Assembly (NCBI GenBank): GCA_017396665.1
Contig: JAFQLH010000043.1
Location: 1-32,567, forward strand
From: Oscillospiraceae bacterium
Lineage (GTDB): Bacteria; Bacillota; Clostridia; Oscillospirales; Ruminococcaceae
DNA length: 32,567 nucleotides
Reading direction: 5' to 3'
Positions 3,959 to 32,567 of this stretch are shown here, in pieces. The notes beneath the pieces are model-generated. The model worked only from the letters and a program-made list of their open reading frames with translations. It ran no database searches and was not told the origin of the DNA. Numbering within the stretch: the first letter of the stretch is position 1; each line of letters starts with the position of its first letter. Both the position numbers and the translations under genes were made by a program.

Positions 3959-4427
3959 TGTCAGCTTCCTTCTCTATCATAGTCTGCGCAATTATCCCTG
4001 CCGCCTGTGCAACAAGCTCTGCACAAGGACGCTTCTTGTAGTAGCCCTGTGTCCTCTCGGACGGAACAGGTGAGTCAGCTCCCTTTGTGTCAAGACCTAA
4101 AAGCTCACGGCATATGATTGAGCCGTTTTCCTCACTGAATTTCTTTGCAAGCGACTGAATGAGCGTGTAATGTGCCGTCTTTGCCGCATGGTCAGAGGTG
4201 TCGCTGTAGCCGTATTTCAGCCCTGCAACCATAAACATACCGCTTACAGCACCGCATACCTCCCTCAGTCTGCCCATGCCTCCGCCGAAGGACGACGAAA
4301 GTCTGAGCGCCATATCAAGAGGCATCGAAAGCTCCTGCGCAAAAGCTCCTAAAACTGCCTGTGAACAGTTGTAGCCCGACAGAAAAAGCTCTCTCGCACG
4401 CTCCTCGTAGTATTCTTTGCTGTTCAT
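3951..4427 (-). CDS. C_GCAxxG_C_C family putative redox protein
   Basis: A 158-residue cytoplasmic protein with the spaced cysteines that define this family: Cys21 in YNCSQAV, Cys58 in EVCGAVSG following a glycine-rich FGGGMGR segment, Cys106 in ICRELLG and Cys134 in RPCAELV. The family is annotated as putative redox-active and its biochemical role is not established. The length fits the family. The start ATG is preceded by GAAAGGGTG, and a consensus promoter lies about 40 bases further upstream. It is the first gene of a two-gene operon with the MATE transporter, which may mean the pair handles a redox-active or thiol-reactive compound (inference). Confidence 0.88.
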   Translation of the reverse strand: MNSKEYYEERARELFLSGYNCSQAVLGAFAQELSMPLDMALRLSSSFGGGMGRLREVCGAVSGMFMVAGLKYGYSDTSDHAAKTAHYTLIQSLAKKFSEENGSIICRELLGLDTKGADSPVPSERTQGYYKKRPCAELVAQAAGIIAQTMIEKEADND

Positions 4428-12634: not shown

Positions 12635-14326
12635 TTAATCCTCGTATGCGAGAGGGTAGCATCTCCAGTCAGGAAGCTCGCTCAATGTGAGAGCACGCTC
12701 GCTCTGATAGGTCTTCTTCCACTGCTCCTCAGCGGTGTAAATTGTAGAAAGCAGATGTCCGTCGAGTGCGTATTCTCCGCTCCATACAGCAAACCATGCC
12801 CAGCGTGAGCCTTCGTCAAATGCAGTGTCAACGTCGAACAGTACGCCGTTTTCTGAAAGTGCAACAATCTTGTTTGTTTCAGTAGCATCAAGAATGTAGT
12901 TGAATCTCTGGTCCTGTGACGAGTAGTCGTATGCGTCAGCGTAAATGTCAACGCTAATCATATCGCAGTATTCATCGCCCGGATACCAGTCAACATTCTG
13001 ACCGTTCCATACCCAGATGAGATTGTCAAGTCCCCAGTGGTTTGTGAGTCTGTCGTACATAAGTATCCACAGCTCCTTGTATGGACCTGCTCCGCCTGAG
13101 CCCCACCAGAACCAAGGATTGTTCCAGGTCGGGTCACCACCCGCCTCGTGAAGCGGTCTCCACAGAACAGGAATGTCAGCGTCTTCAAGCTTCTGAAGCT
13201 CTGCAGCAATAGCGTCAATATCGCTCACAAGAAGGTCGTAGCCCTCCTTGTCCTCGCCGCTCATAATCTTGGCAAGGTCAAGTCCCTGCGTTGCCTCTGT
13301 GTAAAAGCCCCTGTACCAAGGATAGTCAGCACTTCCCACGAGATATTTCTCAGGAGCATTCCAGTGCCATGCAATTGTAACAATTCCGCCTGCCTCGTCC
13401 CAAGCCTTCGCAGCAGTCAGGAACCTGTCACCCTCAGATGAGCCGTGTGCCACTCTGCTCGGCGAGCATTCAATAAGGTCAAGACCGAGTATCGCAGGAA
13501 GGTCTCCGCATACTCGCTGAATTTCCTTGAAGGTTCTGCTCTGGTCGTACAGCATAGCGTTGTCAAGCGGATATGCGTTGTCACCTGAATACTGACCTGT
13601 GAGAGTGTATTTTCCGTACACGTCAACAAGGAAGTTGTAAAGACGCTGTGTTGTGTCGTTGGCATTAGGGTTTGAAAGCTTGTGGCTTACGTCGTAAATC
13701 GAAAGGTCAACACCCTTAGAGCCGAAAATTTCAATGGAGTCAATGATGTATTCTCCTGTGTAGTCCTCGATGGTTACTGTGCATTCGCCAGCCTCAATAT
13801 AAAGGTTGCCGGCGTTTCCTTCACAGAAAGTCCCCGCCTCAGAGAAAGCGAAGGTAGCACTCGCACCATCGCCGAATTTAATTCTTGCAGGAGCGTTGTT
13901 GTCGCTTCTTGTACCTTTGACAACAACGTCATATCTTCCCGTGTATTCAACGTTGAAGGTAAAGGTCAGAGGCTCTTTTCTGGTTATTCCCGTAACGTAA
14001 CCGCTTCCGGAGAATTCGCCGTAGGTGTCTTCTGCACCGACAGTTGCGGACTCATAAAGCTCGCAGTCCTCAGCCTCAATAAAGAAATTGTATTCGTCAG
14101 GTACACCCGTTTCAGGCATATAGTCTGAATAGTCAAGGTCTCCGACCGTTTCAACAATCGGCTGTTCAGGCTCAGAAGAATCTGAAACTGAATCTGTCAC
14201 CGAGCTGTCAGCTCCGCTTGAAGTCTGGTCAGCAGTTGACGAAGATGAGTCAGATACCGAACAACCGAACATTGAAGCGGATATGATAACCGCACAGACA
14301 GCAGAAAGCAGTCTTTTATATTTCAT
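12635..14326 (-). CDS. Lipoprotein GH26 beta-mannanase-like enzyme with CBM35-like domain
   Basis: A 563-residue surface lipoprotein. The start at 14326 is chosen because it gives a clean lipoprotein signal peptide (MKYKRLL, then a hydrophobic core, then SMFGC with lipidated Cys22). A Ser/Asp-rich linker (23-56) would hold the enzyme off the membrane. Residues about 78-202 form a CBM6/35-like beta-sandwich opening with FFIEAEDCE. Residues about 215-560 form the GH26 TIM barrel: WRPLHEAGG with acid/base Glu394, ALSENGV with nucleophile Glu492, and WHWNAP and WVWNGQN subsite segments. GH26 members are mainly endo-beta-1,4-mannanases, so cutting mannan or galactomannan at the cell surface is likely. 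AAAGGAA lies 12 bases before the start. Confidence 0.93.
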   Translation of the reverse strand: MKYKRLLSAVCAVIISASMFGCSVSDSSSSTADQTSSGADSSVTDSVSDSSEPEQPIVETVGDLDYSDYMPETGVPDEYNFFIEAEDCELYESATVGAEDTYGEFSGSGYVTGITRKEPLTFTFNVEYTGRYDVVVKGTRSDNNAPARIKFGDGASATFAFSEAGTFCEGNAGNLYIEAGECTVTIEDYTGEYIIDSIEIFGSKGVDLSIYDVSHKLSNPNANDTTQRLYNFLVDVYGKYTLTGQYSGDNAYPLDNAMLYDQSRTFKEIQRVCGDLPAILGLDLIECSPSRVAHGSSEGDRFLTAAKAWDEAGGIVTIAWHWNAPEKYLVGSADYPWYRGFYTEATQGLDLAKIMSGEDKEGYDLLVSDIDAIAAELQKLEDADIPVLWRPLHEAGGDPTWNNPWFWWGSGGAGPYKELWILMYDRLTNHWGLDNLIWVWNGQNVDWYPGDEYCDMISVDIYADAYDYSSQDQRFNYILDATETNKIVALSENGVLFDVDTAFDEGSRWAWFAVWSGEYALDGHLLSTIYTAEEQWKKTYQSERALTLSELPDWRCYPLAYED

Positions 14327-14362
14327 TTGTATCACATTTCCTTTCACGAAATTTGTAATAAT

Positions 14363-14391
14363 ATGATACAACAAACTACGGCCAAAGTCAA
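14363..14391 (-). promoter_or_regulatory. Promoter for the GH26 lipoprotein gene
   Basis: Read on the minus strand: TTGACT (14391-14386), 17-base spacer, TATCAT (14368-14363). It is back-to-back with the promoter at 14410-14438; the -35 boxes are 18 bases apart, so one regulator could affect both. Confidence 0.7.
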
Positions 14392-14409: not shown

Positions 14410-14438
14410 TTGACAGATTGATAGACCTATGATACAAT
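14410..14438 (+). promoter_or_regulatory. Promoter for the EAL/beta-helix gene
   Basis: TTGACA (14410-14415), 17-base spacer, TACAAT (14433-14438) with extended TG at 14430-14431. The same box pair occurs at 18310-18338. Confidence 0.8.
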
Positions 14439-14477: not shown

Positions 14478-17400
14478 ATGTTTAAATATAACTATATGAG
14501 AAGACTGTTCTGGGAAATGCTGATTATTGCCGTTCTCTGCATTGGAGGAGCTGTAGGATGGTACTTTGCAGCAGGCTTCGGAATAGTGGTATTGAGCTTT
14601 TCCTTTGTCGCTGTACTTTCAATCGCAATATGCGTTTTTATCGGTATGTATTCAAAGCTCTATGTCAGACTTGAATCTATAATGGATGCCGCAGAACAGC
14701 ACTTCGTTATGCTCAGACCAAGAAAGCATGACTATAACGTGTACGGCTCGCAGTCGTTTCTTAAAAAGCTTGAGGATATACTTCCTCAGCGTACAGAGAT
14801 TTCAACAGACGAGTATGACTATTTCTATACAAGACTTTCAGCATCAGCCGAAACACTCGGCGGTGATACGTATTACAGATACAAGACAAAGGACGACGAG
14901 CTGTGGCTCAGATTCAAAAGAGTACAGGACAAGGGCAGGGTATCACTGCTTGTTATCGACGTAACCGATATGTATCTGCAGCGTGTGTATATGATGCAGA
15001 ATGACTACTACGATACACAGAGCAGACTGTATAACAGAGATGCAACGCTCACAAAGGTCCAGCAGTTTATCGATGACGGCTGTAAGATGGGTTACTTTGC
15101 AATGCTCTCTGTAAACGGAACAGAAAAGGAGCTCGCTTCGGGAAGCAACGAAATCGAAGAAGCACTTGCAGAGCTCAGCTTCTACCTCAAGAGAATATCA
15201 ACAAAGCGTGTCATTATCGGTAAGGCATCAAGAAGCAGCTTCCTTATGTTCTTTGCAGGCTCGAATATTGATATCAACTATGAGCTTTCAAAGATACTTG
15301 CATCAGCAAGAAAAATCATATCCGACTTCGCTCCGTCAGCTAAGCGACTCTCAGTTGCCTGTGGCTGCTGCAGATATCCTGAGGATTCAACTGACGCACA
15401 GTCACTTTGCTCAAAGGCTGAGTTTGCAATGCGAGAGGCAGCAGCCTCAAATGCTACCAATGCGGTAATGTTCTCAAGAGAGAAGTTCAACAACGAAAAG
15501 CTCGTTCAGACTAAGGCTAAGGCAGTGCACGAGGTTCTGTCAAACGGAAATATCGACTATAAGTTCCAGCCTATTGTCAATGCTCGAACAGGTAAGATTT
15601 TTGCGTTTGAAGCACTTATGCGTCCTGTCAGCGATATAAAGCTTTCGCCAACGGACATTATAGACATCGCAACAAAGGACAACTGCCTGCTCGACGTCGA
15701 AAGACTTACATTCAATGAGGTGCTCAGGCGTATCGAGGAAAACGAGCAGCTCCTCGGCGACCGTAAGGTGTTTATCAACAGTATCCCGAATACGCTTATT
15801 CCTGAGGATGAATTCTCGCAGATTTCTGAAAAGTTCGGCAGACTGTTTGAGCATACCGTTATCGAAATTACAGAAGATTTGAACTTCGACGACGAAAGCT
15901 TTAAGTCCTTCAGAAACAGATTTCTGTCGCTCAATTGTCAGCTTGCTCTCGACGACTTTGGAACAGGCTATTCAAACGAGTCAAACCTTCTTAAGTTCCA
16001 GCCATCATTCCTGAAGATGGATAAGGCACTTATCGAGAATATGGATACAGACCCGCAGAAGAGAAATCTTGTTGAGGGTATCGTAAGCTTTGCAAAGAAG
16101 CATAACATCAGAATTATCGCAGAAGGCGTAGAAACCCGCAAGGAGCTCGAATCTGCAATCTCTATCAACGTAGACTATATCCAGGGCTTCTATACAGCAA
16201 GACCAAGCTTTGAGCTTGTCGATAAGATTTCTGAAGAAATTTCAGACCATATCGTCGCTCTTAACTTAAAGCTCAAGAGTATAGATTCCAAGAGAGCCTA
16301 TGAAACACAGGAGCCGGGCGAGCTCGATATAGTGGAGCTTGCACTTAAGGGCTACTCAAATGTTCTCGTAAAGCATACACCGATTAAGTTTATCGGCGAA
16401 ACAACCAGAACAGCAGAAATCAGCGTAATAGTTGAAGATGATTTGTCAGCTCAGATTACATTTGAAAATTGTTCACTTGCAAGACATTCAGGACAAAGAT
16501 TCTTTATGATACTCGGTGAAAACTCAAATGTGGAGCTTCAGCTCATCGGCGAGAATAGGTTCTCTGGCGGCTTCAATGTTCCTGTCGGCTCAGAGCTGAG
16601 CGTTTCAGGTAACGGAAAAACGGAAATTATGCTCACAACCGATAATCCGATTGCCTTCGGAAGTCATTCAAAGAGTGGCTACGGACGTATAGATTTTGCC
16701 TACGAGGGCGAGTGCAGTATAAAGCAGTACGGCGATATCTGTATCGGATTCGGCGGAGTCTACAGCGCAATGCTGTCTGATATTATGATTCGTAACGCAA
16801 ATCTCTTTATCGAACAGCGTGGACTCAATAATATCGGTATCGGTTCAGCAGGCGGAGATGCCTCAATCGGTGTGTATAATTCTGTTATCAGAATTGAATG
16901 TAACGGCGATTCAGTAACAGGTATAGGCGTCGAAGCGGGAACTGTAGATACAGAAATATGCGCCTCTGAGATTTCTGTGGATATGGGCTCTGACAGAGCG
17001 GTCGGAGTAGGTATCCTCGAAAGCGGCGGCGGAAGCATCAATATCACAGACAAAACCGTGTTCAAGGCATACATAAGGTCGAAATCGGCTCTCTCTGTCG
17101 GCGCAAGAAACGGCAGACCGGAGATATTCTGCAATGACAGTATTATTGATATCGACTGTGAGGGTGCTGAAGCTATCGGTATCGGAGATATCGACGGCGA
17201 GTCTATTGTACAGGTTAAGAACGGCTCAGTCATAAGAGGGAAAATGGCTTCTGTTTCTCCGAAGCTTATCTCAACAAGCAGGGGACAGATATATATCGAC
17301 AGCGGTAATATCATCACAGACGGAGCACCTCCGAACGCTATAAACAGCAGAGGCAAGGAGCTTGTGTACTATAAGCTCGACAGGAGAGAGGACTTTGTCC

Positions 17401-17522
17401 TCGAGCATTATGACAACGGCGACAGCGGACGTTATGTGGCTCCCGTGTACGACGGAGCACCGCAGTATATCGGCGTCTGTCTTACAGAAGGCTCGCTCCC
17501 TGAAAATATCAGAACACTTTAA
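14478..17522 (+). CDS. Membrane EAL-domain protein with degenerate GGDEF and C-terminal beta-helix-like domain
   Basis: A 1014-residue protein. Two closely spaced membrane helices (about 11-33 and 36-57) put the rest in the cytoplasm. Residues 60-170 may be a PAS-like sensor. Residues 175-335 keep the start of a GGDEF fold (SRLYNRDATL), but the motif itself is replaced by GKASRSSF near 248-255, so no cyclase activity is expected. The EAL domain (345-590) keeps the expected catalytic residues: EAL 378-380, Asn434, Glu463 in IEITE, Asp492-Asp493 in LDDFGTG, Lys513, Glu549 in AEGVET and Gln569. It should therefore hydrolyse c-di-GMP. Residues about 640-960 form repeated short beta strands with IGIGSAGG, TGIGVEAG, VGVGILESGGG and IGIGDIDG turns, like a right-handed beta-helix. 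Such domains are normally extracellular. Confidence 0.88.
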   Translation: MFKYNYMRRLFWEMLIIAVLCIGGAVGWYFAAGFGIVVLSFSFVAVLSIAICVFIGMYSKLYVRLESIMDAAEQHFVMLRPRKHDYNVYGSQSFLKKLEDILPQRTEISTDEYDYFYTRLSASAETLGGDTYYRYKTKDDELWLRFKRVQDKGRVSLLVIDVTDMYLQRVYMMQNDYYDTQSRLYNRDATLTKVQQFIDDGCKMGYFAMLSVNGTEKELASGSNEIEEALAELSFYLKRISTKRVIIGKASRSSFLMFFAGSNIDINYELSKILASARKIISDFAPSAKRLSVACGCCRYPEDSTDAQSLCSKAEFAMREAAASNATNAVMFSREKFNNEKLVQTKAKAVHEVLSNGNIDYKFQPIVNARTGKIFAFEALMRPVSDIKLSPTDIIDIATKDNCLLDVERLTFNEVLRRIEENEQLLGDRKVFINSIPNTLIPEDEFSQISEKFGRLFEHTVIEITEDLNFDDESFKSFRNRFLSLNCQLALDDFGTGYSNESNLLKFQPSFLKMDKALIENMDTDPQKRNLVEGIVSFAKKHNIRIIAEGVETRKELESAISINVDYIQGFYTARPSFELVDKISEEISDHIVALNLKLKSIDSKRAYETQEPGELDIVELALKGYSNVLVKHTPIKFIGETTRTAEISVIVEDDLSAQITFENCSLARHSGQRFFMILGENSNVELQLIGENRFSGGFNVPVGSELSVSGNGKTEIMLTTDNPIAFGSHSKSGYGRIDFAYEGECSIKQYGDICIGFGGVYSAMLSDIMIRNANLFIEQRGLNNIGIGSAGGDASIGVYNSVIRIECNGDSVTGIGVEAGTVDTEICASEISVDMGSDRAVGVGILESGGGSINITDKTVFKAYIRSKSALSVGARNGRPEIFCNDSIIDIDCEGAEAIGIGDIDGESIVQVKNGSVIRGKMASVSPKLISTSRGQIYIDSGNIITDGAPPNAINSRGKELVYYKLDRREDFVLEHYDNGDSGRYVAPVYDGAPQYIGVCLTEGSLPENIRTL

Positions 17523-17528
17523 AACAAT

Positions 17529-17560
17529 AAGTCCCCACAGGTTAATTCCTGCGGGGACTT
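17529..17560. terminator. Hairpin between convergent EAL and XRE genes
   Basis: Thirteen-bp stem AAGTCCCCACAGG / CCTGCGGGGACTT with one mismatch or wobble. The tail is T-rich but interrupted on plus (CCTTTGTCTTG) and TTATTGTTTT on minus, so it probably serves both directions. Confidence 0.75.
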
Positions 17561-17571
17561 CCTTTGTCTTG

Positions 17572-18114
17572 TTATTCTGTAATGAGTGCAGCGTAGTAGT
17601 CGCTGAGAAGCTTTGCGGATTTGTTCATAAGATGCATGCTTTCCTCAGCTCTCTCACCGTTTGAGTAAAGACCTTCCTTAGCATACTCGTTAGCCTGCTT
17701 TGCGTAGTTTACAGCAGTCTGAAGCTCGCTCTTGGAAGAAGCCTCCTTAGCAAGCTCAAGGCATGCAATAGAACGAAGCGCATTGTATTCGTCCTTGAAG
17801 TTTTCACTGTCCTTTTCAAGAACCTCAAGTGCCTTCTGATACTTTCCGCCATTGATTGCACGCTTTGCCTCAATGATTGAATAAGCATCAGAGCTTCCTG
17901 ATGAGTTTTCATCATCCTCAGGAATAAGAGAGGACATTGATATTTCAAGAACAGATGCTAAATATTCGAGTGTCTTGATTGACGGAGTAGCTACTCCGCT
18001 CTCAATCTGACTGAGCATGTTTCTTGTGATAAAATCACCGACAACCTCGCTCTGTGTCATTTTCTTTGCAAGTCTTGCCTCTTTAAGCCGACGGCCAAGT
18101 TCAACAGAATTCAT
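17572..18114 (-). CDS. XRE-family transcriptional regulator with helical C-terminal domain
   Basis: A 180-residue cytoplasmic regulator. The helix-turn-helix (6-60) has the usual order: LGRRLKEARLAKKMTQSEV, a recognition region TRNMLSQIESGVATPS, and TLEYLASVLEIS. A Ser/Asp/Glu linker (63-75) leads to an all-alpha C-terminal domain (78-178) that looks TPR-like, as in XRE regulators that bind small peptides or partner proteins. The ligand and targets are unknown. The start is set by GAGGAGG. The mRNA leader is about 105 bases and holds an inverted repeat (18132-18181). It is divergent to the LTA-synthase-family gene, which may be a target (inference). Confidence 0.9.
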   Translation of the reverse strand: MNSVELGRRLKEARLAKKMTQSEVVGDFITRNMLSQIESGVATPSIKTLEYLASVLEISMSSLIPEDDENSSGSSDAYSIIEAKRAINGGKYQKALEVLEKDSENFKDEYNALRSIACLELAKEASSKSELQTAVNYAKQANEYAKEGLYSNGERAEESMHLMNKSAKLLSDYYAALITE

Positions 18115-20741: not shown

Positions 20742-21929
20742 ATGAAGAAGTTTGTTTATATTGCAAAGGATACGTCCGGTAAAACCATAAAGGGTGCGAT
20801 GGAGGCAGAAACCAGAGAAGAAGTCAACGCGAAAATTTATGACCAAGGCTGGTTCCCTGTAAAGATTACCGCAGACCTCGGTAAGGGCGTAAGCGGAATG
20901 CACAAATTCACAACAAAAGAACTTTCTTTCTGCTGTCGACAGCTGTCGGCGATGATGTCCTCCGGTCTTACAATCGTAAAGGCTCTGGACATTCTCTACA
21001 AGCAAATGAACAAGAAGGACGCACAGCAGACATGGCTTGATGTCTACGAAAGCGTTCAGAAGGGTGCAACCTTCACTGAAGCGCTCCAGGAAAAGAACGG
21101 TGCTTTCCCGGAATTCTTCATCAGTATGATTGGTGCCGGTGAATCCTCCGGTACACTCGATACTGTAATGGCAAGACTTCAGGACCATTACGCAAAGGAA
21201 AACAGAACAACAAATAAGATTAAGGGTGCTATGACATACCCAATCGTACTTGCTGTACTCTGTGTAGTAATGGTAATCGGTATGTTTACTCTCATTCTTC
21301 CGAACTTCAGAGATATGGGTAACGAAGAGGATATGAGTATAATCACAAAGGCTCTGTTCGCATTCAGTGACTTTGTCATCGAGAAGTGGTGGCTGCTTAT
21401 AATTATCGTTGCGGTAGTTGTATTTGCAATTGTCTACGGTCTCAAGATTAAGTCAGTAAGACTTAAGTATGACGAAATCAAGCTTAAGATGCCTAAGGTA
21501 GGAAAGCTTATCAAGATTATCTATACAGGTAGATTTGCAAGAACAATGTCATCCCTGTACTCATCAGGTATCCCGATGGTAGAATGCCTCGAGCGTTCAT
21601 CAAAGATTCTTGGTAACTCATACGTTGACGAAGCGTTTATCCAGATTGTCGACGAAGTAAAGCAGGGTCAGCCGCTTTCAACTTCAATCCAGAAGACAGA
21701 AGTATTCGACCCTATGTTCTGTTCAATCGTATACGTTGGTGAAGAGTCAGGTGCTCTTGACGAAATTCTTTCAAAGACAGCGGACTACTACGAGGAAGAA
21801 TCCGACTCAGCTATCGAGCGTCTCGTAGGTCTTATGGAACCTCTGATGATTGTAATCATGGGTTGTGCAATCGGTCTTTGTCTGGCAGGTATCTTCCCAC
21901 TCCTGTACGGCGGTATGGATATCGAATAA
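20742..21929 (+). CDS. pilC: Type IV pilus inner-membrane platform protein PilC (T2SF family)
   Basis: A 395-residue polytopic protein that couples the PilB/PilT motors to pilin insertion. The N-terminal YIAKDTSGKTIKGAMEAE segment is the classic PilC/GspF start. Two T2SF domains (about 58-185 and 262-388) each hold the ELSFCCRQLSAMM- or GRFARTMSSLYSSG-type helix and an ESSG/EESG turn (GAGESSGTLD; VGEESGALDE). Membrane helices lie at about 166-190, 217-240 and 367-390. The length is normal. GGAGGTG is 13 bases before the ATG. Codon use is strongly biased to AAG, GAC and ATC, as across the whole pilus cluster. First gene of the operon. Confidence 0.96.
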   Translation: MKKFVYIAKDTSGKTIKGAMEAETREEVNAKIYDQGWFPVKITADLGKGVSGMHKFTTKELSFCCRQLSAMMSSGLTIVKALDILYKQMNKKDAQQTWLDVYESVQKGATFTEALQEKNGAFPEFFISMIGAGESSGTLDTVMARLQDHYAKENRTTNKIKGAMTYPIVLAVLCVVMVIGMFTLILPNFRDMGNEEDMSIITKALFAFSDFVIEKWWLLIIIVAVVVFAIVYGLKIKSVRLKYDEIKLKMPKVGKLIKIIYTGRFARTMSSLYSSGIPMVECLERSSKILGNSYVDEAFIQIVDEVKQGQPLSTSIQKTEVFDPMFCSIVYVGEESGALDEILSKTADYYEEESDSAIERLVGLMEPLMIVIMGCAIGLCLAGIFPLLYGGMDIE

Positions 21930-21967: not shown

Positions 21968-23584
21968 ATGCTATCATTTGATATATCTGATAGAAAAATT
22001 TATGCCGTAAAGGGCGATAACGTCGGCGGAAAAATCAAGATTGAACGTTCATGTGAAATCGATGTTCCTGCAGATATGATTGTCAGCGGCGAAGTTGTAA
22101 ATCTTACAGGCGTAAGCGATGTTATCCTTAACAGAATCCGTGAGGAAAGTATGTTTGATAAGAACGCTATCATCACATTCTCATCAAGCAACATCGTGTT
22201 CAAGGAACTCGTAATTCCAAAGGCAAAGCCGGACCAGTTCCTTTCAATGGTACAGAACCAGATGGTTCACGAAATGGGTATTACAAACGACTTCAGTATT
22301 TCATATACTATCGTAGGTGAAGCAGGCCCTGAAAACCCCGGCGCTATGAAGGTTCTCGCAACAGCTTGTCCTTTCGCAGTAGTAGAAAGCTACAGAAAGC
22401 TGTTCAGCATCATGAACATCACTCTCAAGAGCGCTAATATCAGCTGTAACTCAATCTCAAGAATCGTTGTATCCGACAAGTCAAATGCAAACAGAATGCC
22501 ACTTCTCGTTATGCAGCTTGACCCTAACTTCCTCGGAATGACACTCTTCGAAAACGGCCAGATGGCATTTGCAAGATACGTTCCTATCGCAGAGGAAGAC
22601 TACGACTCTGATGATTACATAGTAGAAGCAATGACTGAGAACATCTTCAGAATGACTCAGTTCAATAAGGCAAGAGGCGGCCCGGGTATCTCAAATGTTA
22701 TCCTCTACGGTCAGATTGATGACTACATCAAGTACGCTGACGAGCTTGCAAAGATGGATATCGCAGTTTCTATCCTCCCTGTACCTTCACAGATTACAGG
22801 TTACGAAAACTTCGAGTTCACACTCTACGCAAATGCAATCGGTGCCCTCTATAAGAGAAATAAGCTCACAGAACGTATCAACCTCATCGAGGTAGACTCC
22901 TCAACAGGACGTTCAAGCGCAGCTAATAAGCAGTTCCTTATGTACCTGCTCGGCGGTATCGCAATCGTTGCTGTTGTAATTGCAGCAGGTAAGTTCGCTT
23001 TGAGCGCATGGAACTCATCGGTTCAGGACGACATCAAGGACGTAAATAAGAAGATTGCAGCAGCCCAGGCTCAGATTGCTGAGAGCGCTAAGTACGAAAC
23101 AATGCTTACAAAGCTTGATAAGTACTATAAGTCTGCTGACAATGCTTCAAGAGCGTTTGAGTCACTTCCGCTGCTCAGCCTTGAAACATACGAGAATATT
23201 GCACAGCTCGCTATCGATAACGGCGCAATCGTAGACAACTACACAAAGACAGGTTTCGGTGACTTTGCTTACAATATCAACGGAACAATCACAATCAGCA
23301 ATGTTAAGTTCACATCTGAAGAAGATATGACAAACTTCGTTAAGGCAGTTGCTGAAAGCGACGACTTCTACGCTTACACATTTACAGGATTCAATACAGA
23401 AACACCTGTTGTAAGTGATAAGAATGACGAAGATAAGGACGATGACGATAAGGATACAACAGTTACAGATACTGAACTCGTTTATATCCTCCCTGCAATG
23501 ACCCTGACACTCAAGGAAGGCGACTATGCAGAAATGATGGCACAGCAGAATGCAGCAAATAATCAGGCTGCTGACGCTAAGTAA
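21968..23584 (+). CDS. pilM: PilM-PilN fusion, type IV pilus alignment protein
   Basis: A 538-residue protein that joins two normally separate subunits. Residues 1-295 look like the actin-like cytoplasmic PilM (MLSFDISDRKIYAVKGD start; segments PLLVMQLDPNFLGMTLFENG and FARYVPIAEE). Residues 301-309 (TERINLIEV) match the short INL peptide by which PilN usually docks into PilM, here covalently attached. A membrane helix (324-346), a helical stretch (350-390) and a PilN-like extracytoplasmic domain follow. The tail is strongly acidic (DEDKDDDDKD near 465-475) and ends in a Gln/Asn/Ala-rich segment. It would form the inner-membrane alignment complex with the PilO-like product of the next gene. 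Confidence 0.85.
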   Translation: MLSFDISDRKIYAVKGDNVGGKIKIERSCEIDVPADMIVSGEVVNLTGVSDVILNRIREESMFDKNAIITFSSSNIVFKELVIPKAKPDQFLSMVQNQMVHEMGITNDFSISYTIVGEAGPENPGAMKVLATACPFAVVESYRKLFSIMNITLKSANISCNSISRIVVSDKSNANRMPLLVMQLDPNFLGMTLFENGQMAFARYVPIAEEDYDSDDYIVEAMTENIFRMTQFNKARGGPGISNVILYGQIDDYIKYADELAKMDIAVSILPVPSQITGYENFEFTLYANAIGALYKRNKLTERINLIEVDSSTGRSSAANKQFLMYLLGGIAIVAVVIAAGKFALSAWNSSVQDDIKDVNKKIAAAQAQIAESAKYETMLTKLDKYYKSADNASRAFESLPLLSLETYENIAQLAIDNGAIVDNYTKTGFGDFAYNINGTITISNVKFTSEEDMTNFVKAVAESDDFYAYTFTGFNTETPVVSDKNDEDKDDDDKDTTVTDTELVYILPAMTLTLKEGDYAEMMAQQNAANNQAADAK

Positions 23585-23602: not shown

Positions 23603-24349
23603 ATGAATCTTACACAGAAGGATAAAATAACTCTGTCCGTACTGGCAATTGTGCTCGCACTTTTTATAGGAGTATGGTTCATCCTTAAGCCGGCTTGGCA
23701 GGAAGTACAGGATTCCAAGAAGGATTATAATGAGCTCAGAAAGGACTATACTGCGCTCGAAACACAGGTTCAGCAGAAGGCATCAATCAAGCAGGACGTT
23801 CAGAAGAGATACGATGAATGTATCGAACTCGCTCAGATGTTCTACGATGACTCAACTGACTACGCTCTCCAGCAGGAAGTTTACAACCAGCTCGAAAACG
23901 TTGGTATTACAGTAACTTCAAATACAGTTTCCCATTCTACAAAGCTTCTCTCAGCTTATAGATATAAGCCGCATACACTTGATATCCCAAGTAATGAATA
24001 TGCTGATATCAATGTTGATACAGGAAACAAGAATGCAGTCGCTACAATCGAATCACAGACAGTAGGTTGCTACACATTTAACATCGAGTTCACAAATGCA
24101 AACAAGGATAAGATATTCGAGTTTGTTGAGAACCTCAAGACATACGACCATACAACAATGGTTGTAACAAGCCTTTCCTTCGAGGTTAACGCATTCGACG
24201 TTGAGGCTGACGCTGAAGCTGATAAGCCTGCTCTTGATGAGGAGGAAGAGGAAGATAACAAGAAGAAGGAAGATATCGACCTCGGAACAGGTAGCATTTC
24301 CCTCGAGCTCTACTACATGATGACTCCAGAGGCTCCTGTATTTGAGTAA
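23603..24349 (+). CDS. pilO: PilO-like type IV pilus assembly protein
   Basis: A 248-residue bitopic protein. It has a short cytoplasmic N-terminus, one membrane helix (9-28, LSVLAIVLALFIGVWFIL), a coiled-coil-like stretch (32-75), and a ferredoxin-like extracytoplasmic domain (about 80-195) typical of PilO. A Glu/Asp-rich insert (203-228) precedes the last strand. Sequence identity to Proteobacterial PilO is low; the call rests on architecture and its place right after the PilM-PilN fusion (18-base gap, GAAAGGAGC ribosome site). It should pair with the PilN-like part. Confidence 0.85.
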   Translation: MNLTQKDKITLSVLAIVLALFIGVWFILKPAWQEVQDSKKDYNELRKDYTALETQVQQKASIKQDVQKRYDECIELAQMFYDDSTDYALQQEVYNQLENVGITVTSNTVSHSTKLLSAYRYKPHTLDIPSNEYADINVDTGNKNAVATIESQTVGCYTFNIEFTNANKDKIFEFVENLKTYDHTTMVVTSLSFEVNAFDVEADAEADKPALDEEEEEDNKKKEDIDLGTGSISLELYYMMTPEAPVFE

Positions 24350-24398: not shown

Positions 24399-24442
24399 TG
24401 TTTATGGTAAAGGTTTAAAAATCATCGGAAAGGATGGTATTT

Positions 24443-26763: not shown

Positions 26764-27189
26764 ATGAAATTCTTTGAAAAGCTCAAAAACAGAATAAAGA
26801 AGAATAACGAGGGTATGACTCTCGTAGAGGTTCTCGTCTCCGTTACTCTGTTCGCAATTATGGCAGGCATGATTATGGCTGCCGCAAACTACTCAATTCG
26901 TACACAGGCTGATACAGAGGAGTGGAATGACCAGACTGATAACCAGTCTACATACCTCTCACAGTATCGTTCAAAGGCAATTGTTGATGCGGCGGGCGAC
27001 CCTACCGGTATCCAGTTCACCGGCGGCGGTACACAGTATGAGCTCAAGATTGTTATTGATGGAACAATACACGAAACAGGTGCTATGGTTTCAATCTATA
27101 ACGTAAATACTCAGTATGAGTACAACGATGAAGGTACTGCTCTTCCTACTAACGAAGATGTAAACCTCAGATTCTTCAGAGTAGACTAA
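26764..27189 (+). CDS. Type IV prepilin (PilV/GspI-like)
   Basis: A 141-residue prepilin with a 17-residue basic leader (MKFFEKLKNRIKKNNEG) cut before Met18: G/MTLVEVLVSVTLFAIMAG, with the canonical Glu at +5 (Glu22). The hydrophobic helix continues to about residue 43. A small soluble domain (50-141) lacks the C-terminal Cys pair of many Proteobacterial pilins. The sequence type GMTLVEVLV is most like PilV/GspI minor pilins, yet it is the only short pilin in the cluster, so it may also be a structural subunit. The ribosome site AAAGGAGGGG lies six bases before ATG. Confidence 0.9.
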   Translation: MKFFEKLKNRIKKNNEGMTLVEVLVSVTLFAIMAGMIMAAANYSIRTQADTEEWNDQTDNQSTYLSQYRSKAIVDAAGDPTGIQFTGGGTQYELKIVIDGTIHETGAMVSIYNVNTQYEYNDEGTALPTNEDVNLRFFRVD

Positions 27190-27202: not shown

Positions 27203-29086
27203 ATGGAAAATATCAATGTAACCAAGAAAAAGAATAATGCCGGCTTTACCCTCATAGAGCTTATAGTTGTAATGGCTCTTATGGCAATTATCATGGGCGC
27301 AATCTTAAACTTCATCGAACCTACTTCAAAGCTCTATGCAACAACAAATGCATACCTTAACCAGGAAGAGGCCGTTACCTCAATCTATAATGTGCTCAAT
27401 GACGACCTTATGTACGCAACCGACGTTTGCGTGTTCACCGGCGTTTCAAATCACTCAGATAACGATGGCGAAACAGTTGGTCTCGCAGCAGAGCTTATAA
27501 ACTATGCAAATGCCCAGACAGGAAACAATACTATAATGTATAATAACTGTATCGTTCTTGATAATGTCAATGTGCGAACAGCGACAAGCAAGTCTGAGGC
27601 AAAGGGTGCTACAGGCTCTATCACAAAGTATGCCCTCACAGACCCTACAAACTATACCTATAAGGACGTTACAACCGACGCTTCACTTACTTCAGGTAAT
27701 AAGCTCTATACAAACTACTTCGCTCTCGAAGACCTTACCTTCATGGATGACTACAAGTTCTTCTTTACTGTAGAAGGTCCACGTTCAGGTCAGGAGCAGG
27801 TTCTCACACTCAAGACAGATGTTTATTCTCCGACATATAATTCCGATACCGGTGAGTATGAATTTACAGAGAATCACTTCTCCGCTGAGAACTCAATCGA
27901 GTTTGTAAACATTAACTCCGGTGCTGCTACAAGTAACTGCGACCTCGATACAAGCGGTCCTGATACAGGCTACATCCTTATCTTCTACAACAGAAGAGAA
28001 AAGATTCCTGAGGCAACCGTAAACGTAAACTTCGAGTGCTATATCCTCGAGTCCGACGGCTCACAGTATAAGCAGGCTTGTACATTCACAGCTCCACAGG
28101 GCTCTGATATCTCTCAGCAGGTAATTGATGAGTCTGAATCACTCAATACAATCGAGCCGGTTTCCAATACTCACGTTTTCTTCAGTACAGGTATGTATTC
28201 AACAACACCGTTTGACCCGTATGTCGACGGAAAGGTCTACTATAACCTGACAAGCGCTTCCGGAACGGGTACAATCAAGCTTTACGCTGTATACAAGAAG
28301 GAGCTCAAGCAGAGCGTTCCGTTCAGCATTAATGTGTATAACGGTTCAGATATCACAACTGCAGTGAATACCATGACCTATACAAGAAACTACGGCGAAT
28401 CGCTTAACCTGTCACTTTCAGTTCCATCCGGCTATGACGGAGCATACTACGCATACTGCGGTACAACAATCGAAGCTGACCTTTCGAATATCAAAAATAA
28501 TATGGATATCTATCCATACTATTATAGAACATATACCGTAAAGTTCCAGCTTCCTGACGGAAGGTCCTTCAAGAACGGCGCATTCGATATGACCGGCGTT
28601 CAGGAGGATACACTCGTTGTTGCTCCTGTAGGACTTCTCGATGATGTCATCGACGAAGTGAATGCTAAGCAGTATAGCTACGCTCTGCGTTCTGAGGACG
28701 TTTTCCTCAGCCCTATCGTCGGTAATACAGTAATCCTTATAGATGAAACTGTTATCGATATCGTTACAGAATCAGGTCTCGTGGGTTCTGAAGCACAGGC
28801 TTACAACAATGCACACGTAATCAGACTTACAAACGAAACTGATGCAGAAATTACTGCAGCAGATATCACAATCAAGTTTGACGGAAATGTATCCGGACTT
28901 ACTTTCACAGGTGATACAGCTCCATATTCAGTAGTTTCAATTTCAGGTAATACGGTTGTAATCAACTTCACCAAGAAGTCTGCAGGCTGGTGGACAGCAC
29001 TTTATCCGCATGGCTCAACTGAAAGCCTCGTGTTTACTCTCTCAAATAACGCAAATATCACAGAGATTACCTGCGTTCCTAAGTAA
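27203..29086 (+). CDS. Giant type IV prepilin with adhesin-like C-terminal domains
   Basis: A 627-residue prepilin. The leader (MENINVTKKKNNAG) is cut before Phe15 in G/FTLIELIVVMALMAIIMG, with Glu19 at +5. Residues 15-265 form a PilW-like pilin domain. Two beta-rich repeats follow (about 268-366 and 370-450), each with the VNFECYIL/VPFSINVYN, KLYAVYKK/DIYPYYYR pattern seen in Gram-positive surface adhesin repeats. The last 93 residues (535-627) look like a carbohydrate-binding-module-type beta-sandwich: IRLTNETDAEITAADITIKF, then ISGNTVVINFTKK, GWWTALYPHGSTESLVFTL. The binding target is not known. Last gene of the operon; AAGGGGGTG precedes the ATG. Confidence 0.88.
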   Translation: MENINVTKKKNNAGFTLIELIVVMALMAIIMGAILNFIEPTSKLYATTNAYLNQEEAVTSIYNVLNDDLMYATDVCVFTGVSNHSDNDGETVGLAAELINYANAQTGNNTIMYNNCIVLDNVNVRTATSKSEAKGATGSITKYALTDPTNYTYKDVTTDASLTSGNKLYTNYFALEDLTFMDDYKFFFTVEGPRSGQEQVLTLKTDVYSPTYNSDTGEYEFTENHFSAENSIEFVNINSGAATSNCDLDTSGPDTGYILIFYNRREKIPEATVNVNFECYILESDGSQYKQACTFTAPQGSDISQQVIDESESLNTIEPVSNTHVFFSTGMYSTTPFDPYVDGKVYYNLTSASGTGTIKLYAVYKKELKQSVPFSINVYNGSDITTAVNTMTYTRNYGESLNLSLSVPSGYDGAYYAYCGTTIEADLSNIKNNMDIYPYYYRTYTVKFQLPDGRSFKNGAFDMTGVQEDTLVVAPVGLLDDVIDEVNAKQYSYALRSEDVFLSPIVGNTVILIDETVIDIVTESGLVGSEAQAYNNAHVIRLTNETDAEITAADITIKFDGNVSGLTFTGDTAPYSVVSISGNTVVINFTKKSAGWWTALYPHGSTESLVFTLSNNANITEITCVPK

Positions 29087-29211: not shown

Positions 29212-30027
29212 TTATTGAATAAAACCTGCAAACCTCAGGTAAAGGTCAGCAAGCTGGTTTCCCCATATTGCACATATCGCAATACCAAGAGAAAGCCATG
29301 GACCAAAAGCGAACTTAGAACCTCCTGTGCAGTGCTTGATGATAAGTCCTGCAATGGAAGCGGTCACAAGACCGATAAAGAACGCTGCAACAGTTGCCTT
29401 GACACCAAGGAAAAGTCCTGCTGCTGCCATCAGGTAAACGTCACCTCTGCCCATAGCCTTTCCCTTGGAAAGAAGCTCAATGGCAAGAAGTATGAGGCTT
29501 ACAACAAAGAAACCGATTATGCGGCTTTTCAAATCTGCATCGTCAATGTGATAAAGGTCAAGCTCAAATTGCCAGCGAAGGTAATCGAGAATACCAAGTA
29601 TCGCAATAAACAGTACCATGTAGTTTGAGATAAGCTGTGTGTCCCAGTCCATAAAGAAAACTACTATAAGTGCCGACATAAGCAGGCAAACTAAAATAGC
29701 CTTTATCGGACTGTACATAAAGTCGTAGTACATGAAAACGAGTACATAAATAATACCGTTGAGTGCTTCGACAATACAGTATCTCGGAGAAATCTTAGCT
29801 CCACAGCTACGGCACTTTCCACGCAGGAATAACCAACTGAAAACAGGGATAAGGTCGTAACGCTTAATCTGTGCCCCGCAGGTCATACAGTGGGAGTTTT
29901 GCTTGGTGAGGGATTCCTCCTTAGGCAGACGGTAAATGCAGACGTTCAGAAAGCTGCCAATCGTTATTCCGAAAAGGAATATGAAGGCGTATACTATAAT
30001 AGAGTATACAAGCTCTGAAACGGGCAT
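29212..30027 (-). CDS. pilD: Type IV prepilin leader peptidase/N-methyltransferase PilD
   Basis: A 271-residue membrane aspartic protease that cuts prepilin leaders after Gly and methylates the new N-terminus. After a first membrane helix the GSFLNVCIYRLP segment introduces the cytoplasmic methyltransferase domain, with two Cys pairs that bind zinc (Cys47/Cys50 and Cys72/Cys75). The protease aspartates are visible as MDWDTQLI (Asp127) and GRGDVYLM (GxGD, Asp196). About eight membrane helices fill the normal length of about 250-290 residues. The gene stands alone on the minus strand between the pilin operon and pilB, with its own promoter and terminator. The start is supported by an AGGAGG site. 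Confidence 0.96.
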   Translation of the reverse strand: MPVSELVYSIIVYAFIFLFGITIGSFLNVCIYRLPKEESLTKQNSHCMTCGAQIKRYDLIPVFSWLFLRGKCRSCGAKISPRYCIVEALNGIIYVLVFMYYDFMYSPIKAILVCLLMSALIVVFFMDWDTQLISNYMVLFIAILGILDYLRWQFELDLYHIDDADLKSRIIGFFVVSLILLAIELLSKGKAMGRGDVYLMAAAGLFLGVKATVAAFFIGLVTASIAGLIIKHCTGGSKFAFGPWLSLGIAICAIWGNQLADLYLRFAGFIQ

Positions 30028-30128: not shown

Positions 30129-31820
30129 ATGAAGAATATGCCAATCGGCCAGTATCTGGTTGAGAAGGGACTTCTGACAGAAGAGAATTTGCAGAAGGTA
30201 CTCGCAAAGCAGAAGGAATCAAAGGGAAAAATGTTCGGTGACGTTATCGTCGATATGGGACTTATCTCCGATAAGGAGTTCGCAAAGGTCCTCGCAGAAA
30301 GACTTAACGTTACTTATGTAGACCTCGACGAAGTAAACTTTGTTCCGGAAGTCGTAAAGAAAATTCCTGAGGCAGTTGCAAGAAAGTATAACCTCATCGC
30401 AATCAGCCTCGTAGGAAAGAGACTTACTGTTGCAACAAATGACCCTGCAAACTTCTACATCTTTGAAGACGTAAGAATTATCACAGGCTGTAACGTAGTA
30501 CCGGTCCTCGCAACAAAGCTCTCAATTGCAAAGTATATCGGTAAGCTCTATTCAGCAGGAAGTGCCGAAAATATCGCTGCCGAAGCTTCTCAGGCTGCAG
30601 AGGATATGGGCGATATCGACGTAACGGACCTCGACCTGTCAGCAGACAGAATCGAAAACGCCCCAATCGTTAAGCTCGCTAATACTATTATCGAAAACTC
30701 CCACAGACATGAAGCAACGGACATACATATCGAGCCGTTTGAGAACTATACAAGAATCAGAGTCCGTGTAAACGGCGACCTTGTGGAGCTTATGCCTCCT
30801 GTTTCTCCGCTCATCCATGGCCCGCTTGTAACAAGATATAAGATTCTCAGCGGTATGAATATCGCTGAAAAGAGAGTACCGCAGGACGGACGTATGTCAG
30901 CAGACGTTGACGGAACCCACCTTGACCTCCGTGTATCTAACCTTCCTACAGTTCACGGCGAAAAGGTCGTTATCCGTATCCTCGCAACAGGTAACGTTGC
31001 AACTAGAAAGGTTACCGACCTCGGTATGAACGATACAAACTACCAGAAGTTTATCTCAATGCTTAAGGTTCCTCAGGGCGTTATGCTCGTAACAGGACCT
31101 ACAGGTTCAGGTAAAACAACAACCCTTTACGCAGCCCTCGGTGAAATGGCAAAGCCTCATGTTAATGTTATCACAGTAGAAGACCCGGTCGAAAAGGAAA
31201 TCGAAGGTATCAACCAGTGTCAGATTAACGATAAGGCAGGTATGACCTTTGCCGCAGCTCTCCGTTCTATCCTCCGTCAGGACCCTGACATCATAATGGT
31301 CGGAGAAATGCGTGACCAGGAAACATCTGAAATCGCTATCCGTGCCGCTATTACAGGACATATGGTGCTTTCAACACTCCATACCAACGACGCAGCTTCA
31401 ACTGTAACAAGACTTGTGGACATGGGCGTTGCTCCGTACATGGTTGCAACCTCACTTATCGGTATCGTTGCACAGCGACTTACCAAGGTGCTTTGTCCTG
31501 AATGTAAAAGGCTCAGAATGTCTGCTGAGGAAGATAATATGCTCCTCGGTATTGATAAGGATAAGAGAATACCAATCTATGACGCAGTAGGTTGCCCTAA
31601 CTGTAATAACACCGGCTATAGGGGACGTACCGCTATCCACGAGATTCTGCTCTGTACATCAAGAATGTCATCTCTCATTACCTCAGGCGCTAAGGCAGAC
31701 GCAATCGCCGAGCTCGCTAAGGAAGAGGGAACAAGACTCCTGCGTGATAACGTTGCCGACCTCGTTCAGGAAGGCAAGACAACAATGGAAGAGCTTATCC
31801 GTGTAACATACGCAGTATAA
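30129..31820 (+). CDS. pilB: Type IV pilus extension ATPase PilB (GspE family)
   Basis: A 563-residue hexameric cytoplasmic ATPase that drives pilus growth. The N-terminal MshEN/T2SSE_N domain (5-140) begins IGQYLVEKGLLTEENLQKVL; domains of this type in some PilB/MshE proteins bind c-di-GMP. The motor half has Walker A GPTGSGKT (323-330), the Asp box EDPVE (351-355), Walker B DIIMVGEMRD (387-396), the His box STLHTND (415-421), and a C-terminal zinc tetracysteine (CPEC at 456-459 and CPNC near 487). The length is normal. AAAAAGGAAGGG precedes the ATG. First gene of an operon with pilT. Confidence 0.96.
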   Translation: MKNMPIGQYLVEKGLLTEENLQKVLAKQKESKGKMFGDVIVDMGLISDKEFAKVLAERLNVTYVDLDEVNFVPEVVKKIPEAVARKYNLIAISLVGKRLTVATNDPANFYIFEDVRIITGCNVVPVLATKLSIAKYIGKLYSAGSAENIAAEASQAAEDMGDIDVTDLDLSADRIENAPIVKLANTIIENSHRHEATDIHIEPFENYTRIRVRVNGDLVELMPPVSPLIHGPLVTRYKILSGMNIAEKRVPQDGRMSADVDGTHLDLRVSNLPTVHGEKVVIRILATGNVATRKVTDLGMNDTNYQKFISMLKVPQGVMLVTGPTGSGKTTTLYAALGEMAKPHVNVITVEDPVEKEIEGINQCQINDKAGMTFAAALRSILRQDPDIIMVGEMRDQETSEIAIRAAITGHMVLSTLHTNDAASTVTRLVDMGVAPYMVATSLIGIVAQRLTKVLCPECKRLRMSAEEDNMLLGIDKDKRIPIYDAVGCPNCNNTGYRGRTAIHEILLCTSRMSSLITSGAKADAIAELAKEEGTRLLRDNVADLVQEGKTTMEELIRVTYAV

Positions 31821-31840: not shown

Positions 31841-32567
31841 ATGGCAGCAGTTGATATTAACCAGATTCTTGACGAGTCAAGAGCACTCGGATGCTCTGAC
31901 CTTCACTTTACAGTAGGTATTCCACCAATCGTAAGACAGGGTGGTAGCCTCAGAAAGCTTTCTTCATATTCAGAAATGACCGAAATTGATATTCTCCGTA
32001 TCTGTGAAGCAATGTGTAACGAGATGCAGAAGAAGTCAATCAAGGAGCATATCGACACCGACTTTACATTCGTATCAAAGAGAGGCTTCAGACACAGAGT
32101 TAACGTTTATCGCCAGAGAGGTAACACAGCAATCGCTATCCGTCTTCTCAGAAACGATATCCCAACACTCTCTGACCTTAACCTCCCACCTGTACTCGCT
32201 GAATTCGCAATGCGTCCTCGTGGACTCGTTCTTGTAACAGGCCCTACAGGTTCCGGTAAGTCTACAACACTTGCCGCTATGATTGACCACGTAAATGTCA
32301 ATAAGTCAGCTCATATCATCACAATCGAAGACCCTATCGAATATATGCACGGTCATAAGAGATGTATGGTAAACCAGAGAGAAATCGGACAGGACGTTTC
32401 AAGCTTCTCAATGGCGCTCCGTGCCGCACTCCGAGAAGACCCGGATATCATCCTCGTAGGAGAAATGCGTGACTACGAAACAATCGAAGCCGCTGTAACT
32501 GCCGCTGAAACAGGACACCTTGTTATGTCTACACTTCATACAACAGACGCAGCTTCAACAATCGACC
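31841..32567 (+). CDS. pilT: Type IV pilus retraction ATPase PilT (3' end outside window)
   Basis: The first 242 codons of PilT, the hexameric motor that depolymerises pili and powers twitching. The ATG at 31841 follows TTGGAGGG and lies 20 bases after the pilB stop. The reading frame is open to the window edge. It starts AAVDINQILDESRALGCSDL, the PilT-type N-terminal PAS-like domain with the SDLHFTVG segment. It then has Walker A GPTGSGKST, the Asp box IEDPIEYMHGHK, Walker B DPDIILVGEMRDYETIE and the His box STLHTTDAAST. EYMH after the Asp box and the absence of a long N-terminal domain separate it from PilB. Its presence suggests retractile pili. Confidence 0.95.
   Translation, partial: MAAVDINQILDESRALGCSDLHFTVGIPPIVRQGGSLRKLSSYSEMTEIDILRICEAMCNEMQKKSIKEHIDTDFTFVSKRGFRHRVNVYRQRGNTAIAIRLLRNDIPTLSDLNLPPVLAEFAMRPRGLVLVTGPTGSGKSTTLAAMIDHVNVNKSAHIITIEDPIEYMHGHKRCMVNQREIGQDVSSFSMALRAALREDPDIILVGEMRDYETIEAAVTAAETGHLVMSTLHTTDAASTID

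Follow-up and report, generated by a model that had tools for sequence, protein, structure and literature searches.

We analysed a stretch of 32,567 nucleotides (the window; positions 1 to 32,567 of contig JAFQLH010000043.1, assembly GCA_017396665.1) from an Oscillospiraceae bacterium of the family Ruminococcaceae. It carries a gene whose product joins an EAL domain, the domain of cyclic di-GMP (c-di-GMP) phosphodiesterases, to a predicted parallel beta-helix, and type IV pilus genes lie downstream. The frame at 14478-17522 on the plus strand is open for 1014 amino acids (aa) and ends in TAA. The protein is made up as follows (pLDDT, the local confidence score of the structure model).

14478..17522 (+), whole fusion gene, 1014 aa, conserved in the genus: transmembrane (TM) hairpin, PAS-like part, degenerate GGDEF, EAL, beta-helix
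14481..14690 (+), two membrane helices (residues 2-71), from hydropathy and from the full-length model, which has low pLDDT there
14703..14960 (+), PAS-like fold (residues 76-161), from the order of secondary-structure elements in the model
15036..15446 (+), degenerate GGDEF domain, motif absent (residues ~187-323), from Pfam and a motif check
15525..16205 (+), EAL phosphodiesterase domain, Pfam stretch residues 350-576, from PF00563 and eight residues
16233..16274 (+), connecting helix (residues 586-599), from the full-length model
16296..17486 (+), predicted right-handed parallel beta-helix (residues ~607-1003), from periodicity, AlphaFold2 and structure comparison

A sequence-only reading of the window had described a single 1014-residue frame, and this description holds. 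The whole fusion protein is present in eight other genomes of the same genus at 49-67% identity, and in a ninth (G003) it is split over two contig-end pieces; the fusion was thus found in 10/10 same-genus genomes searched. That reading had itself named a frameshift or an assembly error joining two genes as an alternative. This is excluded because the same fusion lies on separate contigs of separate genomes (10/10 in the genus, 92 EAL-bearing proteins). No point was found in its favour. We rejected an assembly error and regard it as vanishingly improbable.

The EAL domain keeps its catalytic residues

The EAL profile (PF00563) matches residues 350-576 with 162.1 bits against a cut-off of 31.3. 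E378, N434, E463, D492, D493, K513, E549 and Q569 are all present, which we take to be the catalytic and metal residues of EAL enzymes. The same eight (E, N, E, D, D, K, E, Q) are kept in 90/90 full-length EALs, with three truncated EALs set aside from this count. By both sequence features assessed, the fusion protein is an EAL-type c-di-GMP phosphodiesterase, with the complete metal and catalytic residues reported before, and its EAL domain would be expected to hydrolyse c-di-GMP.

The two membrane helices reported earlier were also recovered. Hydropathy gives hydrophobic segments at residues 14-32 and 36-54, and the full-length model has helices at 2-32 and 37-71, with low pLDDT there. Between these helices and the GGDEF-like part, the model shows a PAS-like fold at residues ~76-161; no PAS family of Pfam matched the whole protein or the N-terminal part, and the fold is named from element order alone. 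When the N-terminal part was scanned by itself, the GGDEF profile (PF00990) reached 21.5 bits against a cut-off of 23.8, and a search of the window protein for a GG(D/E)EF motif found none. Judged by this sub-threshold score and the missing motif, which had been noted before, the GGDEF-like part is a degenerate relative of GGDEF. An active diguanylate cyclase was rejected on the same two grounds.

The C-terminal part is a predicted beta-helix of an undescribed family

The beta region spans residues ~607-1003, roughly 400 aa. Its N-terminal region is followed by eight repeat units of 28-33 residues (residues ~696-933). Both glycine and aliphatic columns have a period of 28, which is the best lag for each, and this signal was matched by 0.1% (glycine) and none (aliphatic) of 2000 permutations. 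AlphaFold2 folds the region as a solenoid with high confidence. The sequence-only reading had described about 350 residues of repeated beta strands and had proposed structure prediction of the C-terminal part as a check; the repeats and the solenoid stand, and the length is corrected to about 400 aa. A Foldseek search of the PDB on its own gave no match at E <=0.001, and the assignment of the fold comes from the model together with VIA-align. A covariation peak at separation 28 was weak (mean z 0.72, ranking fourth, below those at separations 6, 7 and 9) and is not relied on; the EAL domain, used as a control, had no peak at 28. The model predicts that the C-terminal part is a right-handed parallel beta-helix.

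No Pfam family matched the C-terminal 415 residues of the window member at E up to 10. Among 13 beta-domain members scanned at the same threshold, DUF4402 (PF14352) matched five (best E 0.018), YadA_head (PF05658) one (best E 0.062) and G8 one. In a scan of 52 beta domains (E up to 0.05), seven Pfam families each matched a single member (best E 0.0005) and none matched more than one; neither DUF4402 nor YadA_head was among the matches. NCBIfam returned three families for the 52 domains, again with one member each (best E 0.016). The Cthe_2159 carbohydrate-binding family (PF14262) weakly matched one of the 52 (E 0.021) and did not match the window member. Sequence searches of the PDB gave a best E of 0.62 for the C-terminal part and nothing better than E 0.6 for the alignment of 52 domains. 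Because no curated family covers it, the beta-helix is an undescribed family in the libraries searched. Bactofilin was considered and rejected, with no profile match in the whole protein (E up to 1) or in the 52 beta domains (E up to 0.05).

Over 95 rows of the beta-domain alignment, the best conserved columns are glycines and aliphatics. Only Y608, P702 and N693 stand for columns with a polar, aromatic or proline majority at about 90%, and six further columns of this kind, including that of E895, reach 64-73%. A beta-helix enzyme such as a polysaccharide lyase or epimerase was not supported, since no family matched at the thresholds above beyond single members and no conserved catalytic polar set was seen; the fold neighbours include beta-helix enzymes, so that fold alone does not argue against such a role. 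As the conserved columns are glycine and aliphatic, binding or scaffolding is more likely than catalysis for this part of the protein. The pectate-lyase-like right-handed beta-helices, adhesins and tailspikes Vag8, SRRP, PfbA and AlgE4, which are extracellular proteins or enzymes judging by their titles, have 6-15% identity to the window arm, whereas the arm has no conserved catalytic-looking set. A search for a second copy of the beta domain in the window's own genome (incomplete, 86.8%) found none at E up to 10.

The beta-helix most likely lies in the cytoplasm

The distance between EAL and beta profile is 16-24 aa in 87/92 relatives and 28-49 aa in the others; it is nearly fixed, while the N-terminal parts differ between subgroups. 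By hydropathy, no TM-like segment precedes the EAL domain in 62/87 complete relatives, five rows open at the 5' end being left out of this count and of the N-terminal classes below. In the window protein, the two helices are joined by few residues, which would put both ends of the protein on the same side of the membrane. The beta part is rich in cysteine, with a mean of 2.7% (n = 90, range 1.4-4.8) compared to 0.7% in the EAL domains of the same proteins; a secreted-looking homologue, L129, has 2 cysteines in 2474 residues. This high content fits a reducing compartment. The coil core may have adapted to the cytoplasm in this way, or the cysteines may serve to sense redox state or metals. We conclude that the beta-helix most likely lies in the cytoplasm, where the sequence-only reading had placed the solenoid, and hold the identity and location of the module with high confidence.

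That the C-terminal part is instead exported or exposed at the surface, with the EAL domain an inactive relic, would fit the occurrence of homologous modules in the secreted-looking protein of 2474 aa. Against this stand the relatives with no TM-like or signal-like segment before the EAL domain, the cysteine-rich beta domain and the conservation of the EAL residues in every full-length copy. We rejected export on these grounds and consider it very improbable.

Distribution and origin of the fusion

A profile of the beta domain matched 62/297 genomes of the family sample. This became 61 after G296 (L119) was dropped, a match not returned by the profile search at the level of open reading frames. 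In the order sample, 12/295 genomes matched, all from the same family; in the class sample, 11/291 matched, three in the family and eight outside it, the latter being seven EAL fusions from two further families and L129. The phylum sample gave 2/299. Three fragment matches of the family sample (G308:C12, G103:C115 and G030:C76) and G471 of the order sample were left out. The 14 named relatives are metagenome-assembled and titled Ruminococcus sp., Oscillospiraceae or uncultured Clostridia, several of the titles naming a gut or rumen sample.

There are 95 distinct beta-domain proteins: 92 with EAL directly in front, L129, which is outside the EAL counts, and two (L065 and L109) that are cut at contig ends and have no full EAL. 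When compared with 26 other EALs, those bearing a beta-helix form one clade (support 96/88). The tree took 53 of the 92 fused EALs and the 26 others chosen from the matches; because it used selected EALs, an unfused member inside the clade could be missed. As far as sampled, these sequences indicate that the beta-helix was joined to one EAL lineage once.

L129:1908-9329 (-) encodes 2474 aa. Hydropathy marks its N-terminus as signal-like, and six modules related by homology to the beta domain stand behind it in tandem; nine stretches of the protein match PF18889 (Beta helix repeat). It is the one homologue found here that lacks EAL without being a contig-end fragment, in keeping with the earlier remark that such solenoids usually sit outside the cell. 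In a profile-profile comparison, its modules align colinearly with the beta domain over ~150 residues (hhalign probability 98.6, E 5.6e-16). By this match, the cytoplasmic beta domain and the surface-type repeat modules share a common ancestry. L129 differs from the window arm in its tandem copies, its signal-like N-terminus, its two cysteines and its lack of EAL.

Among the 87 complete proteins, we distinguished five N-terminal classes, set by length alone, with a Pfam check in nine proteins: ~80-100 residues (14 proteins), 250-350 residues without the two-helix part (29), the two-helix type of the window (21), ~500 residues (9) and ~630-660 residues (14). On the tree, they need five changes, four being the minimum possible. 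A TM-like segment was seen by hydropathy in 2/29 rows of the class labelled soluble and in 2/14 of those labelled LacI plus GGDEF. Of nine representatives scanned with Pfam, four have LacI/Peripla_BP domains; three of these belong to the longest class and one to the 500-residue class. Four members of the longest class have a GGDEF or SGDEF motif and one of the middle class has RGEDF, so some relatives may be bifunctional, to judge by these motifs. Four proteins (L072, L088, L120 and L124) combine a LacI-type sugar-binding domain with EAL and beta-helix and lack a clear TM segment; GGDEF is additionally matched in L072, L088 and L124. From their domain content, these four are apparent cytoplasmic sugar-to-c-di-GMP sensors.

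Type IV pilus genes lie near the fusion gene

The other features of the window considered here are listed below.

2621-4427 (-), MATE exporter gene that shares 8 bases with the gene of a putative redox-active C_GCAxxG_C_C protein
12635-14374 (-), glycoside hydrolase family 26 (GH26) protein with a sub-threshold CBM35-like part, adjoining the fusion gene
14410..14438 (+), promoter-like site TTGACA-17-TACAAT with TG before the second hexamer, 11/12 consensus matches; putative, as the scan gave 17 sites against 8.3 in shuffles
17529..17560 (no strand assigned), 13-pair hairpin between the convergent EAL and helix-turn-helix (HTH) genes, scored as a terminator on the minus strand
17572..18114 (-), HTH regulator (Pfam), the next gene in 10/10 same-genus loci compared
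18377-19996 (+), LtaS/phosphoglycerol-transferase-like gene of the sulfatase family, between HTH and pilus genes
20742..21929 (+), PilC-like type IV pilus platform protein (T2SSF, Pfam)
21968..23584 (+), PilM-like (Pfam)
23603..24349 (+), PilO/GspM-like (T2SSM, Pfam)
24434-26749 (+), 771-aa protein with one N-terminal hydrophobic segment by eye and no Pfam match
26764..27189 (+), prepilin-like (N_methyl, Pfam)
27203..29086 (+), large prepilin-like protein (N_methyl, Pfam)
29212..30027 (-), PilD-like prepilin peptidase (Pfam)
30129..31820 (+), PilB-like extension ATPase with MshEN domain (T2SSE 433 bits, MshEN 59.7)
31841..32567 (+), second T2SSE ATPase, PilT-like, ending at the window edge (T2SSE 150 bits)

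A homologue of the window PilC (84-93% identity) lies 1.5-3.3 kb downstream of the fusion gene in 9/9 other same-genus loci, and one of PilM (71-82% identity) is downstream in the same nine. A PilO/GspM homologue was found in seven of them, and the remaining two loci may end too early. The second T2SSE ATPase is read as PilT with the help of gene order. The 771-aa protein is possibly a large minor pilin or tip protein; a relation to the beta domain was considered and rejected (hhalign probability 0.1).

MshEN is described in PMC5013675 as a c-di-GMP receptor. The domain in the window PilB scores 59.7 bits against a cut-off of 23.1, and the first of its two 24-residue motifs fits the relaxed pattern. 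MshEN is present in 59/61 module-bearing genomes of the family sample and in 54/236 without the module. The two module genomes without a match are G001 and G321; in G001, the coordinates suggest that the contig ends before the expected place.

A possible role in pilus control

Our explanation is an active, membrane-anchored phosphodiesterase with a rigid cytoplasmic docking or regulatory arm and the pilus as output; taken as a whole, we see it as evenly balanced between right and wrong. Within this genus, the enzyme would be held at the inner face of the membrane by its two helices. The beta-helix, as a rigid arm, would bind a protein or glycan in the cytoplasm and either position the enzyme or alter its activity. 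The enzyme would then reduce c-di-GMP in the vicinity of the type IV pilus machine encoded nearby, which has MshEN in its PilB, and pilus extension and adhesion would be turned down. Either the beta-helix itself or the PAS-like and GGDEF-like part could read the signal for this. A scaffold, a polymerising module and a ligand sensor, the roles proposed in the sequence-only reading, are all still candidates for the arm. Of the separate parts, a docking or regulatory role for the arm appears fairly probable, and the pilus as output in this genus falls a little short of an even chance.

Several observations weigh against this explanation. The window PilB lacks the first residue of the second MshEN repeat, although the rest of that motif fits. 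The fusion gene is set apart from the pilus genes and outside their operon, because it has its own promoter-like site and an opposite-strand HTH gene and the sulfatase-family gene lie between. Neighbours differ in other genera, with a GTPase read as YchF at 9/94 loci and a cluster whose longest member is read as LacI-type near 11/94, so that the synteny with pilus genes is confined to this genus. A further 54 genomes have MshEN but not the module. Genomes with many EAL domains tend to carry MshEN in any case, and we therefore stratified by the number of EAL matches per genome (where nine means at least nine). MshEN was found in 6/6 genomes with the module and 10/48 without it at 2-3 matches (p 0.0003), and in 21/22 and 18/31 at 4-6 matches (p 0.003). 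The corresponding counts were 1/1 and 6/43 at one match (p 0.16) and 31/32 and 14/17 at 7-9 matches (p 0.11). The link therefore holds in two of four strata, in counts that ignore phylogeny. The relative placement of EAL and beta-helix is uncertain in the full-length model, for which the predicted TM-score (pTM) was 0.59. Finally, the PAS-like and GGDEF-like part could be the sole regulator and the arm a mere stabiliser.

The arm might instead be a cytoplasmic receptor for a glycan or metabolite that controls the EAL domain allosterically, forming a sugar-to-c-di-GMP relay. Among the solved structures nearest to the arm, many are tailspikes, adhesins or beta-helices that bind or process glycans, and a LacI-type sugar-binding N-terminus occurs in four of the nine representatives scanned. 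However, a shared fold does not reveal what a protein does, and in the best-matching structure Vag8 is bound to a host protein. The three columns conserved near 90% form no obvious binding patch, and the single Cthe_2159 match that would favour such a receptor is weak. We consider this relay unlikely. Much the same doubt attaches to a wider proposal, that a surface-type glycan-binding beta-helix moved into the cytoplasm once and became an obligate arm of a Clostridia phosphodiesterase lineage. As an internal receptor, whose ligand would be a glycan, a sugar compound or the pilus base, it would gate c-di-GMP and, through MshEN-PilB, the type IV pilus adhesion of Ruminococcus-like gut bacteria. 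Slightly less probable again is self-assembly, in which beta-helices dimerise or polymerise side by side or end to end and so form phosphodiesterase clusters or the EAL dimer needed for catalysis. The near-fixed linker and the rigid all-beta rod would suit such a device, and bactofilins are a precedent for polymerising beta-helices in the cytoplasm, but no bactofilin was among the Pfam matches and other EAL proteins dimerise without such a part.

Comparison with known c-di-GMP proteins

Bactofilins share the cytoplasmic beta-helix, but the window arm is several times as long and has no Pfam match. GGDEF-EAL tandem proteins have the same EAL domain with complete catalytic residues behind a degenerate GGDEF, and the window protein adds a beta-helix of ~400 residues after EAL that matched no curated family in the libraries searched. 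In YkuI, an accessory domain also follows EAL. This domain, YkuI_C, is presented in PMC8846402 as an intracellular, CACHE-like accessory domain of EAL proteins, whereas that of the window protein is a predicted parallel beta-helix. The YkuI_C profile in Pfam had no match in the window protein.

The EAL domain of FimX is a c-di-GMP receptor without catalysis. FimX-type proteins, as outlined in PMC8389850, have the same order of degenerate GGDEF and EAL and a link to type IV pili. The window protein differs in its beta-helix, its TM hairpin and its retention of all eight catalytic and metal residues, and a FimX-type receptor EAL was rejected because of these residues.

No EAL/beta-helix protein was found in the literature by titles and abstract openings among the matches listed. 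By its domain content, the combination of EAL with an intracellular beta-helix appears to be a new architecture, the EAL enzyme family itself being known. Enzymes of c-di-GMP metabolism are usually thought to be controlled by a sensor in front; here, an undescribed beta-helix of about 300-410 residues stands behind the catalytic domain, at a nearly constant distance, in about a fifth of the 297 family genomes sampled. This raises the question of what a surface-type parallel beta-helix does inside the cell. An internal receptor gating c-di-GMP, if that is what it is, would represent a type of intracellular sensor or docking domain new to second-messenger enzymes. Type IV pili are linked to cellulose adhesion in R. 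albus, and a pilin is reported in the extracellular proteome of R. flavefaciens (PMC3672088, PMC3244431). How c-di-GMP controls such adhesion-linked pili in Ruminococcus-like gut bacteria is a further question raised by this locus.

Further observations

Four points go beyond the sequence-only reading: the PAS-like domain, the single origin of the module, how widely it occurs, and the nearby type IV pilus locus, whose PilB bears MshEN. Over the window, Rfam returned no family at gathering score, and hence no catalogued c-di-GMP riboswitch. A gene related to the window GH26 gene lies just upstream in 5/10 same-genus loci, on either strand. The fusion gene is separated from the next gene on the pilus side by ~2.5 kb in the window, L131 and L138 and by ~0.8-0.9 kb in seven others, and this difference in spacing among same-genus loci suggests an insertion or loss.

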